Shown: positions 5,238-49,963 of the stretch, one piece after another
Layout of the letters: every line of letters begins with the position of its first letter
Numbering within the stretch: position 1 is the stretch's first letter
Origin: Alphaproteobacteria bacterium
GTDB taxonomy: Bacteria; Pseudomonadota; Alphaproteobacteria; DSM-16000; Inquilinaceae
Reading direction: 5' to 3'
DNA: 64,000 bases
Assembly (NCBI GenBank): GCA_028284045.1
Contig: JANQSN010000058.1
Coordinates: 62,001 to 126,000, forward strand
Made by a program: the position numbers and the translations under genes
The notes under the pieces: generated by a model
Seen by the model: the letters and a program-made list of their open reading frames with translations, nothing else
Database searches by the model: none
What the model was told of the DNA's origin: nothing

Positions 5238-6496
5238 GCGGCCGTTTTGTCCGTCCCCTCGGCGACGAGCCGCGCTTGCGGCTGTCTCGTTCCGCGCTGC
5301 TTCAGCGGTTGCCGCGGGCGGCGGCGGTGTCCCGCTTGCTGGGCGCGAGATGGGCCGGTCTCGGGGTTCTGGGCGTCGTCCTCGCCGGGTGCGCCTGGAT
5401 CGTCATCAAGCGCTTCTACCCGGTCGATGGCCCGGCCCGGCTGCTCTACTGGCTGCACGATACCCTGTTGCTGCCGCTCTGGGGCTGGCTGTGGCATGCG
5501 GCGGGCGCGATCAGCCTGACCTGGCTGGTACCGGCCGGCGTGTTTCTGGCGGTCGGCCTTGCCGGCTATGCCAGCAATCGGTCGATCCTGCGGGCCCTCC
5601 AGCGCGGCACCCTCATTCGCACCTTGCCGCCGGCGCGGCTGGCGGTGCTGCATCTTCGTCTGCTGCAGCGGCTCCAATCACGGTTCCGGTCGATCCTGTA
5701 TGCCACGGCGGTTGCCGAGAGCGAGGCGGTGAAGGCCGTGGAGACGGTCCGCCTCCGTGCGCTTTCGGGGGCGCCCGTGCCGGCCGAGGACGTCGCCCGG
5801 GCCCTCGGCCGGTCGCTGCTGGCCCATGACCTGGCGGCCGCGCGCCGGCATCCGGCGCGCCAGGCCGATGCCGCCAGGCTGCTGCATCACGCCGTCGTCT
5901 GCGCGGATATCGCCGGGACGAACGGCGACTTGGCGGCGATCGCCGGGCCGCTGGCCGCGGTGGTGACGCGTCTGCGCACGGTGGTGCTCACCCTCCCGGG
6001 CAAAGCCGCATTGGCCGACGCCGCCGAAGCCGCCTTCGCCGCAGCGGGTTCGCAAGATGCGGCCACCGGCGAAGGCCTGCCCGCGCGCTTGCCGGCCAGT
6101 TTGTCGATGCTGTTCAACCGCTACGCCGCGCAGGTGGAGCGAGGACTCCATACCTCGGTCGCCGCGGCCAACCGTATGGTCCTGCCCGAACAGGTCGATA
6201 GCATCGGCTGGACCTGCGCCTTGCTGTGCGCTGTGGGGATCTTGCAGCGCCGCGGCGATGCAGCACAGCTCTCCACCTTTGCGGAGGACATCTTCCGGCT
6301 GGGGGTCGCGCTGGATGCCGAAGGCCGGCACGACCCCGGCGACGCGTCGGCCGCGGCGCTCGCCGAGGCCATTGCGGCGGTCGATCCGTTGTTTCTGATG
6401 CGCGGCGTCGGCGACCGCTCGAAGAACGTCGGGTCGTCGTCGATCTGGCATCACTGGGGTCGCGCGGCGGCAACTGGTCCGGGGGCAGCGCCTTGA
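5234..6496 (+). CDS. Two-helix membrane protein of the MoxR operon
   Basis: This 420-residue protein has no recognised family. I chose the ATG at 5234 because it forms a 4-base ATGA overlap with the preceding stop. The N-terminal 40 residues are basic. Hydrophobic segments lie at about 41-58 and 92-111. The remaining roughly 300 residues are soluble, Ala/Leu/Arg-rich and largely helical. The gene ends in a TTGA overlap with the giant gene downstream, so the two are very likely translated together. It may be a membrane scaffold for the ATPase-propeller complex, by inference from context only. Confidence 0.75.
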   Translation: MSGRFVRPLGDEPRLRLSRSALLQRLPRAAAVSRLLGARWAGLGVLGVVLAGCAWIVIKRFYPVDGPARLLYWLHDTLLLPLWGWLWHAAGAISLTWLVPAGVFLAVGLAGYASNRSILRALQRGTLIRTLPPARLAVLHLRLLQRLQSRFRSILYATAVAESEAVKAVETVRLRALSGAPVPAEDVARALGRSLLAHDLAAARRHPARQADAARLLHHAVVCADIAGTNGDLAAIAGPLAAVVTRLRTVVLTLPGKAALADAAEAAFAAAGSQDAATGEGLPARLPASLSMLFNRYAAQVERGLHTSVAAANRMVLPEQVDSIGWTCALLCAVGILQRRGDAAQLSTFAEDIFRLGVALDAEGRHDPGDASAAALAEAIAAVDPLFLMRGVGDRSKNVGSSSIWHHWGRAAATGPGAAP

Positions 6497-44221: not shown

Positions 44222-45787
44222 ATGGTCGACACGGCGGCGCATGACCGCATTCTGATCCTCGATTTCGGCAGCCAGGTTACCCAGCTCATCGCCCGGCGCG
44301 TCCGCGAAGGTGGCGTCTACAGCGAGATCTGGCCCTACGACCGGGCCGATACCGCGGCGCTGGCCGGGTTCGCCCCGCGCGGCATCATCCTGTCGGGTGG
44401 GCCGGCCTCGGTCACCGGCAGTGCGACGCCGCGGGCGCCGGACGCCGTCTTTGCAGCGGGCGTGCCGGTGCTGGGCATCTGCTACGGACAGCAGACCATG
44501 TGCCATCAGCTCGGCGGCCGGGTCGAAGGCGACGACCATCGCGAGTTCGGCCGGGCCGAGGTGTCCGTGACGGCCGATGCCCGCCTGTTCGGCGCGGATT
44601 GGCCGGTGGGCGGCCGGCAGACGGTGTGGATGAGCCATGGCGACCGCGTCGTGGCGCTGCCCGACGGTTTTCGGACGATCGCCGTCAGCGACGGCGCGCC
44701 GTTTGCCGCCATCGCCGACGAGGCGCGCGGCTTCTACGGCGTGCAGTTCCACCCGGAGGTTGCCCACACCCCGGGGGGCCGTGCGCTGCTGCAGCGCTTC
44801 ACCCACGAGATCTGCGGTTGCCGCGGCGACTGGACCATGGCGCAGTTCCGCAGTGAGGCGGTCGCCGCGATCCGCCGTCAGGTCGGCGGGGACCGCGTCA
44901 TCCTCGGCCTGTCGGGCGGGGTCGACAGCGCGGTCGCCGCGGTGCTGCTGCACGAGGCGATCGGCGCGCAGCTCACATGCATCTTCGTCGATCACGGCCT
45001 GCTGCGCGACGGGGAGGCGGCGCAGGTGGTCGACCTGTTCCGCGGGCACTACAACATCCCGCTGGTGCATATCGACGCAACCGACCGGTTCCTCGACCTC
45101 TTGGCCGGGGTCGACGATCCGGAGACCAAGCGCAAGCGCATCGGCGCCACCTTCATCGAGGTCTTCGACGGCGAGGCGGCGAAGATCGGCGGCGTGCGCT
45201 TCCTGGCCCAAGGCACGCTCTATCCCGACGTGATCGAGAGCGTCTCGGTGGTCGGGGGTCCCAGCGTCACCATCAAGTCCCACCACAATGTCGGCGGCCT
45301 GCCGGAGCGCATGAACCTGGCGCTGGTGGAGCCGTTGCGCGAGCTGTTCAAGGACGAGGTGCGCGCGCTGGGCCGAGAACTCGGGCTGCCCGACGACATG
45401 ATCGGCCGCCATCCCTTCCCCGGCCCCGGCCTGGCCATCCGCATCCCCGGCGAGGTGACGGCCGACAAGCTGGCGATCCTGCGCAAGGCCGACCGGATCT
45501 ATCTGGAGGAACTGCGCACCGCCGGCCTCTATGACGAGATCTGGCAGGCCTTCGCCGTGCTGTTGCCGGTGCGCACGGTCGGCGTGATGGGCGACAGCCG
45601 CTCCTACGACTATGTCTGCGCCTTGCGCGCCGTCACTTCGACCGACGGCATGACGGCGGATTTCTACCCGCTGCCCCACGACCTCTTGGGCCGCATCGCC
45701 ACCCGCATCGTCAACCAGGTCGCCGGCATCAACCGCGTCGTCTACGACGTCACCGCCAAACCGCCGGGGACGATCGAGTGGGAGTAG
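44222..45787 (+). CDS. guaA: GMP synthase (glutamine-hydrolysing)
   Basis: GuaA converts XMP to GMP using glutamine and ATP. The 521 residues match the family. The N-terminal glutamine amidotransferase has its nucleophile C87 in GICYGQQ and the His-Pro-Glu triad segment HPE further on. The ATP-pyrophosphatase P-loop SGGVDS is at 231-236. The C-terminal end PPGTIEWE is typical. Confidence 0.97.
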
Positions 45788-45804
45788 GGCGCAAGCGCTG
45801 GAGC

Positions 45805-45856
45805 TAGATCAACCTGCGTTCAGATGGACTCATCCGAACGCAGATAAGTTGATCTA
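45805..45856. repeat. Palindromic element, unit 1 of a twin
   Basis: The order is TAGATCAAC, CTGCGTTC, a 14-base loop, GAACGCAG, an ATAA bulge, then GTTGATCTA. Both stem segments are perfect. It lies 17 bases after the guaA stop and could end that transcript. Confidence 0.8.
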
Positions 45857-45867
45857 ATTCAAAGTGT

Positions 45868-45909
45868 TAGAGCATCTTATCTGCGTCCATTCGGACGCAG
45901 GATGCTCTA
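45868..45909. repeat. Palindromic element, unit 2 of a twin (inverted relative to unit 1)
   Basis: The order is TAGAGCATC, a TTAT bulge, CTGCGTCC, a 4-base loop, GGACGCAG, then GATGCTCTA. It has the same build as unit 1, but the 4-base bulge is on the opposite arm and is its complement, so it is the same repeat type in reverse. Its right end supplies the TAG stop of the broken gene on the - strand. Confidence 0.8.
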
Positions 45910-46138
45910 GCGCAACTCCCGCGCCGCCTGCTCGAACCAGCCGATGACCCGCGCAAGATGGGCCTCGCCCCAGGTCGCGGTGAGTTTCTGCGTTCCCTGG
46001 TCGGCCGGGTCGCGAAGCGCCGCGAGACGGTCTTCGACATAGGCCAGCGTGAGCGGCCGGCGTGAGCGGGATACGACAAAGCACGGTGATGCAGTGCTTC
46101 CAGTCGTCGTAGGTCCTCAAAGGCAGCACGGCGGTCAC
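45907..46138 (-). pseudogene. Small gene broken by a 13-bp tandem duplication
   Basis: One frame gives a sensible start (about TAVLPLRTYDDWKHCITV) and a second gives a sensible end (LTLAYVEDRLAALRD, then TWGEAHLARVIGWFEQAAREL and stop at 45907). They meet at a tandem duplication: 46044-46056 and 46057-46069 differ at one base. Deleting one copy restores a single frame of about 72 residues. The family is not certain. A sequencing error is the alternative. The upstream frame stays open beyond 46138, so the original gene may have been longer. Confidence 0.65.
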
Positions 46139-46303
46139 CCTGCCACCGCTCTTGCAGACGGCCTCTTGATGAGGACGAGGGTCGGGCCCAGTTCGTGTCG
46201 GTGCCGTCCCCTCGATCGCACGCCGCAGAGCGCGGAACTCGGCAAGGTCGGCTGGACCGACAAGGGCCCTATGACCCCTTCCATTCTTGCGCCTTGAGTT
46301 CGT

Positions 46304-46317
46304 AACGTTATAACGTT
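46304..46317. promoter_or_regulatory. Zur-like palindrome upstream of folE
   Basis: AACGTTATAACGTT is a perfect 14-base palindrome with the GTTATAAC core of Zur operators. It lies 70 bases before the folE start. The operon it precedes (folE, COG0523 GTPase, DUF1826) is a classic set of zinc-starvation genes, so sequence and context agree. Confidence 0.75.
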
Positions 46318-46386
46318 GCGATCACTGACCACAAGAGCCGATTGCCCCCTGCTCGCCGGGGGATTGGCCGCGGGAACGGGTTTGAA

Positions 46387-47040
46387 ATGGACGCAGCAGT
46401 TGTCGATGGCCGGCCCACGCAAGCGGCTTCCACCAACGCCAGAGGGCGCCGGCGGCCCAGCCGGGCAGAGGCGGAAGCAGCGGTTCGGACGCTGATCGAA
46501 TGGGCGGGCGAGGACCCCGACCGCGAAGGCTTGGCACGCACGCCTGAGCGTGTGGTGCGGGCCTATGAGGAGTTCTTCGCCGGATACGACGAAGATCCGG
46601 TCGCGCTGCTTGAGAGGACATTCGAGGAGACGGCCGCCTACGACGAGATGATCGTCCTGCGCGACATCCGCCTCGAATCCCATTGCGAGCACCACATCGT
46701 GCCCATCCTGGGAAAGGCGCATGTCGGCTACCTGCCAGCGGGCCGCGTCGTCGGGATTTCCAAGCTCGCGCGCCTTGTCGACGTTTTCGCCAAGCGGATG
46801 CAGATCCAAGAGGCGCTGACGGCGCAGATCGCGGACACCATCCAGGAGATTCTCAAGCCGCGCGGTGTCGCCGTCGTCATCGAAGCGGCGCACCAGTGCA
46901 TGACCACGCGCGGCATCCGCAAGCCGGGAGTCAGCATGATGACCAGCCGCATGCTCGGCTCGTTCCGCGACGATCCGGCGACCCGCCGGGAGTTTCTCGC
47001 GATGATCGAAAGCCCGAGGAGCGTATCGTATGGGGGCTGA
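46387..47040 (+). CDS. folE: GTP cyclohydrolase I (FolE)
   Basis: FolE converts GTP to dihydroneopterin triphosphate, the first step to folate and related pterins. I chose the ATG at 46387, giving 217 residues. The zinc ligands are C100 and H103 (in SHCEHH) and C171 (in AHQCMTTRG). In Zur-controlled operons such copies are backups or zinc-priority targets. Here it sits behind a Zur-like site and ahead of a COG0523 GTPase, which favours a second, stress-related folE copy. That cannot be confirmed from one window. Confidence 0.94.
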
Positions 47041-47176
47041 GCGCACCGACCCGACGACATCGGCACGCTGTGCAGCCCGCATCTCGGTTGCGCGAGTCGA
47101 AGAAGGACCGGCGCTGGCCCCTGGGTTCGATGCCACCGGACCGATTCCCGTCATCCATGAAGGTCGCTACGCATGA
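47030..47176 (+). CDS. Coupled 48-residue ORF resembling the N-terminus of HisI
   Basis: This ORF fills the gap between folE and the COG0523 gene. Its ATG overlaps the folE stop by 11 bases and its stop shares ATGA with the next start, so it looks translated. Its C-terminal half, with [18 protein letters not shown], resembles the opening of phosphoribosyl-AMP cyclohydrolase (HisI), a zinc enzyme that is duplicated in some Zur regulons. The rest of that enzyme is absent, so it may be a deletion remnant kept as a coupling leader. The HisI link is from memory of the family and is tentative. Confidence 0.45.
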
Positions 47177-48402
47177 GTGACGCTCTCTCGCACCGCAAGC
47201 TTCCGGTTACGGTCCTGTCCGGGTTCCTCGGCGCCGGCAAGACGACCTTGATGAACCACATCCTCAACAACCGCGAAGGCAAGCGCGTCGCGGTCATCGT
47301 CAACGATATGAGCGAGGTGAACATCGACGCCGATCTCATCCGCGACGGTGGCGCCGATCTGAGCCGGACCGAAGAGACGCTCGTCGAGATGAGCAATGGC
47401 TGCATCTGCTGCACGTTGCGCGATGACCTTCTGAAGGAAGTGCGTCGGCTCGCCCATGATGGCCGGTTCGACTACCTGCTCATCGAATCGACCGGCATCT
47501 CCGAGCCGCTACCGGTGGCGGCCACCTTCAGTTTCCGCACGGAGGAGGGGGAGAGCCTGGAGGACGTCTCGCGCCTCGATACGATGGTGACCGTCGTCGA
47601 TGCCGCGAACCTTCTGGGCGACTACGCGTCGACCGATTTCCTCAAGGACCGGGGCGAGGCGCTGGGCGAGCAGGATGATCGAACGCTGGTCAACCTGCTG
47701 GTCGATCAGATCGAGTTCGCCGACGTCGTCATCCTGAACAAGATCGATGCCGCGTCGTCGGAGCAGCGCGATGCCGCGCGCAAGATCATTCGATCGCTCA
47801 ATCCCGACGCGGAGCTGATCGAAACCAGCATGTCGCGCGTATCGCTGGACGAGGTGCTGAACACCGGCCGGTTCGATCACGACAAGGCCCAGGAGCATCC
47901 GCTGTGGTTCAAGGAGCTTTACGGCTTCGCGGACCACAAGCCGGAGACGGAAGAGTATGGGGTGCGCAGCTTCGTCTATCGCGCGCGCCGGCCGTTCCAT
48001 CCGGAGAAGTTTCACGCCTTCATCAAGGCGTCCTGGCCGGGTGTCATCCGTGCCAAGGGTCATTTCTGGCTGGCGACCCGCCCGGAATGGGTCGGTGAGT
48101 TGAGCCAGGCCGGTGCGATCGTGCGCCATGAGGCCATGGGCTTCTGGTGGGCGAACGTGCCGAAAGAACGGTGGCCGGACCACCCGGAATGGCGCCAACA
48201 CATCGCCAATGCCTGGGATGCCGTCTACGGAGACCGCCGCCAGGAGATCGTCTTCATCGGCACCGATATGGATGAGGCCGATATCCGACGCCGGCTCGAT
48301 GCCTGCCTGGTCGGCGATGCCGACGCCACAGCCATGCAACCGGCGGCCTGGAGCAAGCTGAAGGATCCGTTCCCAGTCTGGAAGAGGGCCGAACGGTCAT
48401 GA
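47173..48402 (+). CDS. zigA: COG0523 (CobW/ZigA-like) GTPase, probable zinc metallochaperone
   Basis: This family loads metals, usually zinc, into client proteins when the metal is scarce. The 409 residues have Walker A GFLGAGKT at 17-24 and the diagnostic CxCC motif (C77, C79, C80, in [10 protein letters not shown]). A C-terminal CobW domain follows. The Zur-like site, folE and the DUF1826 gene all point to zinc. FolE itself may be its client, as reported for ZigA/ZNG1-type proteins in general; here that is inference. Confidence 0.93.
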
Positions 48403-49094
48403 CCGGTCAAGTGGTATCGCTGGACGGCAAGGGAGTTGGCACCACGGCCACGTTGGGCTCGGGCATCGAGACGTGCGACACGGCGGACGACCTCACCGCC
48501 ATCAACCGGCCCGGCACGGAGCTTGTGATCTGGCGGCGCAGGCTTCCGTTGTGCCTGCAAAACTGGCTCGACCACATGGACCCTTCGTGCCTGCCCGATC
48601 TCCGGGTTCTGGTCCGGCCCGGCGACCTTCGACGCGCGCTGCCGCCGCATCTGGACGACTGCGGTGTGCCGCCGGGGGATATGCGCGACTTGCTGATCGG
48701 CGATGTCGACGATCTCGTTTCGGTCTTCTCCAGGATCATCCAGACCGATCTCGTCGACGTGAGGCTGGAGCGCGTCAGCAACGATGCCTGCTGGCGGTTC
48801 CACCGCGACTTCGTTGAGGCGCGCCTGCTGACCACCTATCGGGGTCCGGCGACCGAGTGGGTCCAACCGATCCACGCGGAGCGGGCGTTGCGCGACCAGA
48901 AGATGTTCGACGGGCCGGTCGAGCATCTCGGCATCCATGACGTGGCGATCTTCAAGGGGAACTGTGCCGCGTCGGGCAGCGGGATCGTGCACCGCTCGCC
49001 GCCCATCATGGACACCGGCGGCACGCGATTGCTGCTCTGCCTCAACAAACGGTCGGCCGCGTCGCCTGAAGCGTGGTCTCCGGAAAAGCACTGA
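48399..49094 (+). CDS. DUF1826 protein
   Basis: This 231-residue protein is typical of DUF1826, with the segment [19 protein letters not shown] and several conserved Cys/His (for example HRDF and [12 protein letters not shown]). The family is often found with COG0523 GTPases in Zur regulons and probably takes part in zinc homeostasis. Its ATG overlaps the zigA stop by four bases. Its biochemical role is not known. Confidence 0.88.
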
Positions 49095-49781: not shown

Positions 49782-49924
49782 CGAGACTCCTTTGAGCATT
49801 GGGTCGGTCATCGCCAAGAGGTGGCCGTGTGCCGCATCGACCCCGTTCGGCGCGCCGCCCCGACGCAACTGGACCGATCATCGCCGCGGATGGGTGCGAC
49901 GGGGGCGTCCTTCGTGTAGAGACT

Positions 49925-49963
49925 CCGCCGTCTAGGGCCGCCGTCTAGGACCGCCGTCCAGGG
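49925..49963. repeat. Three tandem 13-bp repeats
   Basis: The unit CCGCCGTCTAGGG occurs three times in a row with one or two changes per copy. It lies in the divergent spacer 31 bases before the FAD/GcvT-type gene. It may be slippage-prone or an operator array. Confidence 0.75.

Follow-up and report, generated by a model that had tools for sequence, protein, structure and literature searches.

Zur-regulon clusters of the kind described by Haas et al. 2009 (PMC2770081) bring together COG0523 GTPases and paralogues of the zinc enzymes HisI, CysRS and FolE, and DUF1826 is also named in that work. Zur sites tested by EMSA in P. denitrificans, for example GTAACGTAATAACAT, are given in Table 7 of PMC5387054. 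In the window, the whole 64-kb stretch of DNA that was analysed, a Zur-like box in a promoter region lies among zinc-response neighbours, in the order broken gene, Zur-box-like palindrome, folE, hisI remnant, zigA and DUF1826 (Table 1). With a probability that we put at roughly 0.7, the broken gene is a paralogue, inactivated not long ago by a 13-bp tandem duplication, of a small (~70 aa) Zur-regulon protein.

Table 1 Features of the window in and around the broken small gene
Feature	Coordinates	Strand	Basis
guaA, convergent neighbour outside the zinc cluster	44222..45787	+	NF000848
Broken small gene	46138-45907	-	GTG start 46138, TAG stop 45909-45907
N-terminal part, GTG 46138 and the 27 residues after it (TAVLPLRTYDDWKHCITVLCRIPLTPA)	46055..46138	-	tblastn with C58 paralogue
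C-terminal part, other frame, to the TAG stop	45907..46062	-	tblastn with C58 paralogue
94-aa ORF as present, family residues N-terminal, then out-of-frame residues	45854..46138	-	ORF list
13-bp imperfect tandem duplication	46044..46069	-	Sequence, repeat search, frame switch; 12/13 identical
Zur-box-like palindrome GTAACGTTATAACGTTGC, between the broken gene and folE	46302..46319	.	17/18 to symmetrised motif
folE, GTP cyclohydrolase I	46387..47040	+	PF01227, NF006825, TIGR00063
hisI remnant, 48-aa ORF	47030..47176	+	tblastn 73% over 26 aa, E 9e-7
zigA, zinc metallochaperone GTPase (COG0523)	47173..48402	+	NF038288, 647.9 bits against a cut-off of 600
DUF1826 protein	48399..49094	+	PF08856, 153.6 bits

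A 13-bp tandem repeat and a change of frame

A preliminary description of this DNA placed adjacent 13-bp copies with a single mismatch at 46044-46056 and 46057-46069, and both the coordinates and the difference, A at 46046 for G at 46059 (one base; 92% identity), were verified in the sequence. The 64-kb window has three comparable adjacent repeats (unit of 12-40 bp, at least 12/13 identity). In 60 simulations under a first-order Markov model the mean was 0.4 and the highest count 3, so that the 13-bp repeat alone is only mildly unusual and makes modest evidence. Its meaning comes from its position, as tblastn with an intact paralogue changes frame exactly there. Residues 1-27 of the paralogous protein encoded on contig C58 matched the window at 46135-46055 (81% over 27 aa), and residues 21-70 matched it in a different frame at 46062-45913 (82% over 50 aa). 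From these two pieces, the gene was placed on the minus strand, a point that the preliminary description does not make, between the GTG and TAG codons listed in Table 1. The two halves correspond to successive stretches of an intact member of the family, which gives good support to the original claim that the duplication breaks a gene, and the 72-residue protein that removal of one copy was said to restore comes close to the intact family members, which have ~65-75 aa and carry the signature W..CIT..C.IPLT. The frame change at the duplication deprives the window copy of the single open frame of the family, and it was classed on that account as a broken member, disrupted relative to intact homologues as a pseudogene is. 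A separate gene in the C-terminal frame was ruled out, as the ORF list of the window holds no ORF of at least 25 aa with an ATG, GTG or TTG start in that frame.

Of 111 loci, 10 showed the repeat pair, and every one of these is a single place in the window's own genome, which rules out the duplication as an old trait of the family. Relatives with the same duplication and no intact protein had been named as grounds against a broken gene, and the opposite was found, with the family frame open in 59 of the 60 named loci and the duplication seen only here. The single exception, at 6001-6087 of locus L073 (Paracoccus mutanolyticus), ends after ~29 residues with no second piece found in another frame, and is an independent loss by a different kind of event.

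At the site itself, Rfam gave no matches and a tRNA search found nothing, the one tRNA-Asp lying far away. A ~107-bp palindromic element occupies 45804-45910, one of its ends falling at the stop codon of the broken gene; it is one of 12 near full-length copies in the genome (88-98% identical), is TA-flanked in the copies examined and looks like a MITE. A further 13-bp tandem pair (12/13) lies at 49924-49949, to the right of the DUF1826 gene and outside the genes annotated here.

The small family and its zinc neighbourhood

A search of the window's own genome with 45900-46300 returned a second place, C58:79155-79368 (79% identical), where the minus strand has an uninterrupted frame of 75 aa next to cysS, so the window copy is ruled out as the sole genomic copy. 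On one strand, C58 carries zur, a COG0523 GTPase, a cysS paralogue (cysS2) and the intact small gene, with hisI on the other side of a palindrome from the small gene. The hisI remnant of the window, the second broken gene of its zinc cluster, matches only the N-terminus of this zinc-cluster hisI and runs into the start of zigA, its lesion being a large deletion; the two genes broken in the window cluster, small gene and hisI, both have intact C58 counterparts. A second cysS (60% identical) is found on C18, and further hisI-like and folE genes on C20 and C37. The C-terminus of the C58 COG0523 protein also has a weak match of 24 aa at 46345-46416 (E 0.003, composition correction off), which was taken as chance.

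The palindrome of the window lies ~160 bp upstream of the GTG of the broken gene and is common to folE, and the next-best Zur-like score in the window is 12/18. A search of the genome for its 14-bp core, allowing at most 2 mismatches, gave just two sites, this one and C58:82896 in the other zinc cluster. A related site, ATGTTATAGCATAAC, stands between genes whose best matches are znuA and znuC, both somewhat below the curated cut-offs.

A profile search of genome contigs yielded 60 loci of the family; the titles of their records name Alpha-, Beta- and Gammaproteobacteria, with a small number of other groups. Among sets of relatives that contained no second genome of the window's genus, a match was present in 5 of 96 relatives and, within the order, in 5 of 17 genomes (the window's own genome counted in both), and in 3 of 289 genomes of a class-wide sample. 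The small gene was also found in 52 of 5426 E. coli genomes, with no annotated feature of its own under the match in the ten matches listed, and in 520 plasmid records, mostly of Klebsiella; in the E. coli and Klebsiella records examined, the small protein is left without annotation. Three loci (L019, L024 and L029) have two copies of the small gene ~0.8-0.9 kb apart. Pfam and NCBIfam assigned the C58 protein to no family, and Pfam gave scattered weak matches for 57 members (best E 0.004), the best for the first member being below cut-off. The literature searched contains no description of the family, and it appears to be undescribed.

An AlphaFold2 model of the member from locus L015, built with 57 members, consists of four helices (mean pLDDT 93.9), with the invariant cysteines C15 and C20 at the end of helix 1. 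A PDB profile search with the family gave nothing at E up to 1, and comparison of the fold with PDB and viral structures gave nothing below E 4, so that no function can be borrowed from a known fold. Our guess is that the conserved C-x4-C motif might bind metal or engage the COG0523 GTPase.

The association of the family with zinc genes was measured by tblastn (E 1e-4) across the 60 loci. COG0523/zigA was the most frequent (33 loci), ahead of zur-like genes (20), hisI (16), cysS (14), DUF1826 (13) and folE (7). With cysS set aside, 40 of the 60 loci have one or more zinc markers (E 1e-6), and a further 6 have cysS alone; the other 14 had neither within the stretch covered, some of them being short contigs, and none of four control stretches of the window had any zinc marker. 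An 18-bp Zur-like box scoring at least 15/18 occurred in 27 of 60 loci against 0 of 180 Markov shuffles, and at 14/18 in 34 of 60 against 2 of 180, with the limit that the motif was built from the window's own genome and P. denitrificans, so that locus L038, from P. denitrificans, does not count as independent. Upstream of the small gene, to a distance of 350 bp, 11 of 60 loci have a box of at least 14/18, compared to 25 of 1200 random stretches from the same loci. Neighbourhood and motif together make the small gene a putative zinc-starvation (Zur-regulon) gene. Against this, we place the family gene of P. denitrificans by inference at pden1333-1337, genes that the main text of PMC5387054 does not mention as zinc-responsive.

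Remnants of COG0523 genes, comprising approximately the first 47 residues, lie just upstream of the small gene in L015 (5051-5176), L016 (5813-5974) and L031 (5837-5974), indicating that zinc clusters lose parts in other genomes too. For the zur-like gene of L016 (5313-5803) and for zigA of L066 (6268-7445), the match is broken into two pieces that overlap, the pattern expected from a frameshift or an error in the sequence.

Age of the break and its explanations

The two pieces of the window copy were compared separately with 24 homologues, and no further stops or indels were found in either. Their pN to L015 was 0.066 (N piece) and 0.067 (C piece), compared to 0.057 and 0.097 for the intact C58 copy; 61 of 70 residues are common with L015 and 58 with C58, and the invariant residues W12, C15, I16, T17, C20, P23, L24, R32 and G52 are retained. 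With pN over the two pieces no higher than in the intact copy, no other stop or indel and the invariant residues in place, the break would be young. At the same time, the one-base divergence of the 13-bp copies shows that the pair has persisted for some time, and the scant decay outside the repeat fits a young break, a switch or an assembly error equally.

Most likely, the duplication broke one of two copies recently and permanently, within a cluster from which redundant parts are disappearing. The duplication, near codon 20-28, would have originated by replication slippage. It shifts the frame, and a product could contain no more than the initial third of the protein ahead of out-of-frame residues. 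This loss was presumably tolerated owing to the intact copy in the C58 zinc cluster, a redundancy that may likewise have permitted the decay of hisI in the window cluster. As for what was lost, the intact protein, as a guess, most likely supports the zinc-starvation response beside the COG0523 GTPases.

A sequencing or assembly error, with the gene intact in the organism, is unlikely. The assembly is a draft of 63 contigs and the gene otherwise looks intact, but a spurious 13-bp insertion that imperfectly copies its neighbour would be an atypical base-calling error, the assembly has a completeness of 100 and a contamination of 1.54, and the large deletion in the neighbouring hisI shows genuine decay in the cluster.

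The preliminary description suggested that slippage could reverse the event and that the gene may therefore vary in phase and not be dead. Gain and loss of the 13-bp duplication would then toggle a zinc-starvation protein in the population, which now seems quite improbable. In its favour, the tandem repeat lies inside the coding region and has a frame-shifting length (not a multiple of 3), and the remainder of the window gene, still intact in appearance outside the repeat, looks selected. The usual substrate of phase variation, however, is a short repeat tract of many units, and here just two copies are present, differing at one base, a pair old enough to have acquired a substitution and not replaced by a fresh duplication afterwards. 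The intact relatives lack the duplication, so no hypermutable tract is conserved at the site, the intact paralogue would mask any switch, and the hisI remnant beside it also speaks for loss. That the altered 94-aa ORF, or its N-terminal piece with the C-x4-C motif, is functional still is very hard to credit, for while the W..CIT..C.IPLT piece is in frame from the GTG, R32, G52, W62 and F63, (nearly) invariant in 57 aligned members, are lost together with helices 3 and 4 of the confident four-helix model of a relative.

That a short duplication breaks a reading frame is commonplace, and the small conserved family is the part worth following, as its protein is encoded, in three proteobacterial classes, beside genes of zinc starvation and boxes like those of Zur. 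If controlled by Zur, it would add a new component to the bacterial response to zinc shortage, and the C-x4-C motif offers a direct route to testing metal binding. A broader reading, which we offer tentatively and hold to be possible rather than probable, is that the family is an undescribed Zur-controlled one of four-helix C-x4-C proteins in Alpha-, Beta- and Gammaproteobacteria that may act with COG0523 GTPases in zinc delivery or sparing, one copy being off here, conceivably reversibly.

Comparison with described systems

The break resembles pseudogenisation by short tandem duplication or slippage, with adjacent copies, a length not divisible by 3, a lost frame and an intact remainder of the gene; it differs in that the copies have already diverged by one base, and is otherwise ordinary. 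With slippage-mediated phase variation it shares a repeat within the coding frame, whereas two imperfect copies are present here as opposed to a tract of many units. The palindrome of the window resembles the EMSA-tested P. denitrificans Zur sites, GTAACGTAATAACAT and others (PMC5387054). In comparison with the clusters of PMC2770081, zigA/COG0523, zur, hisI, cysS, folE and DUF1826 are all found beside the family gene, and a ~70-aa C-x4-C protein, absent from the portion of that text covered, is added to them. The present locus also differs from those clusters in that its genes are divided over two clusters, in one of which two genes are broken.
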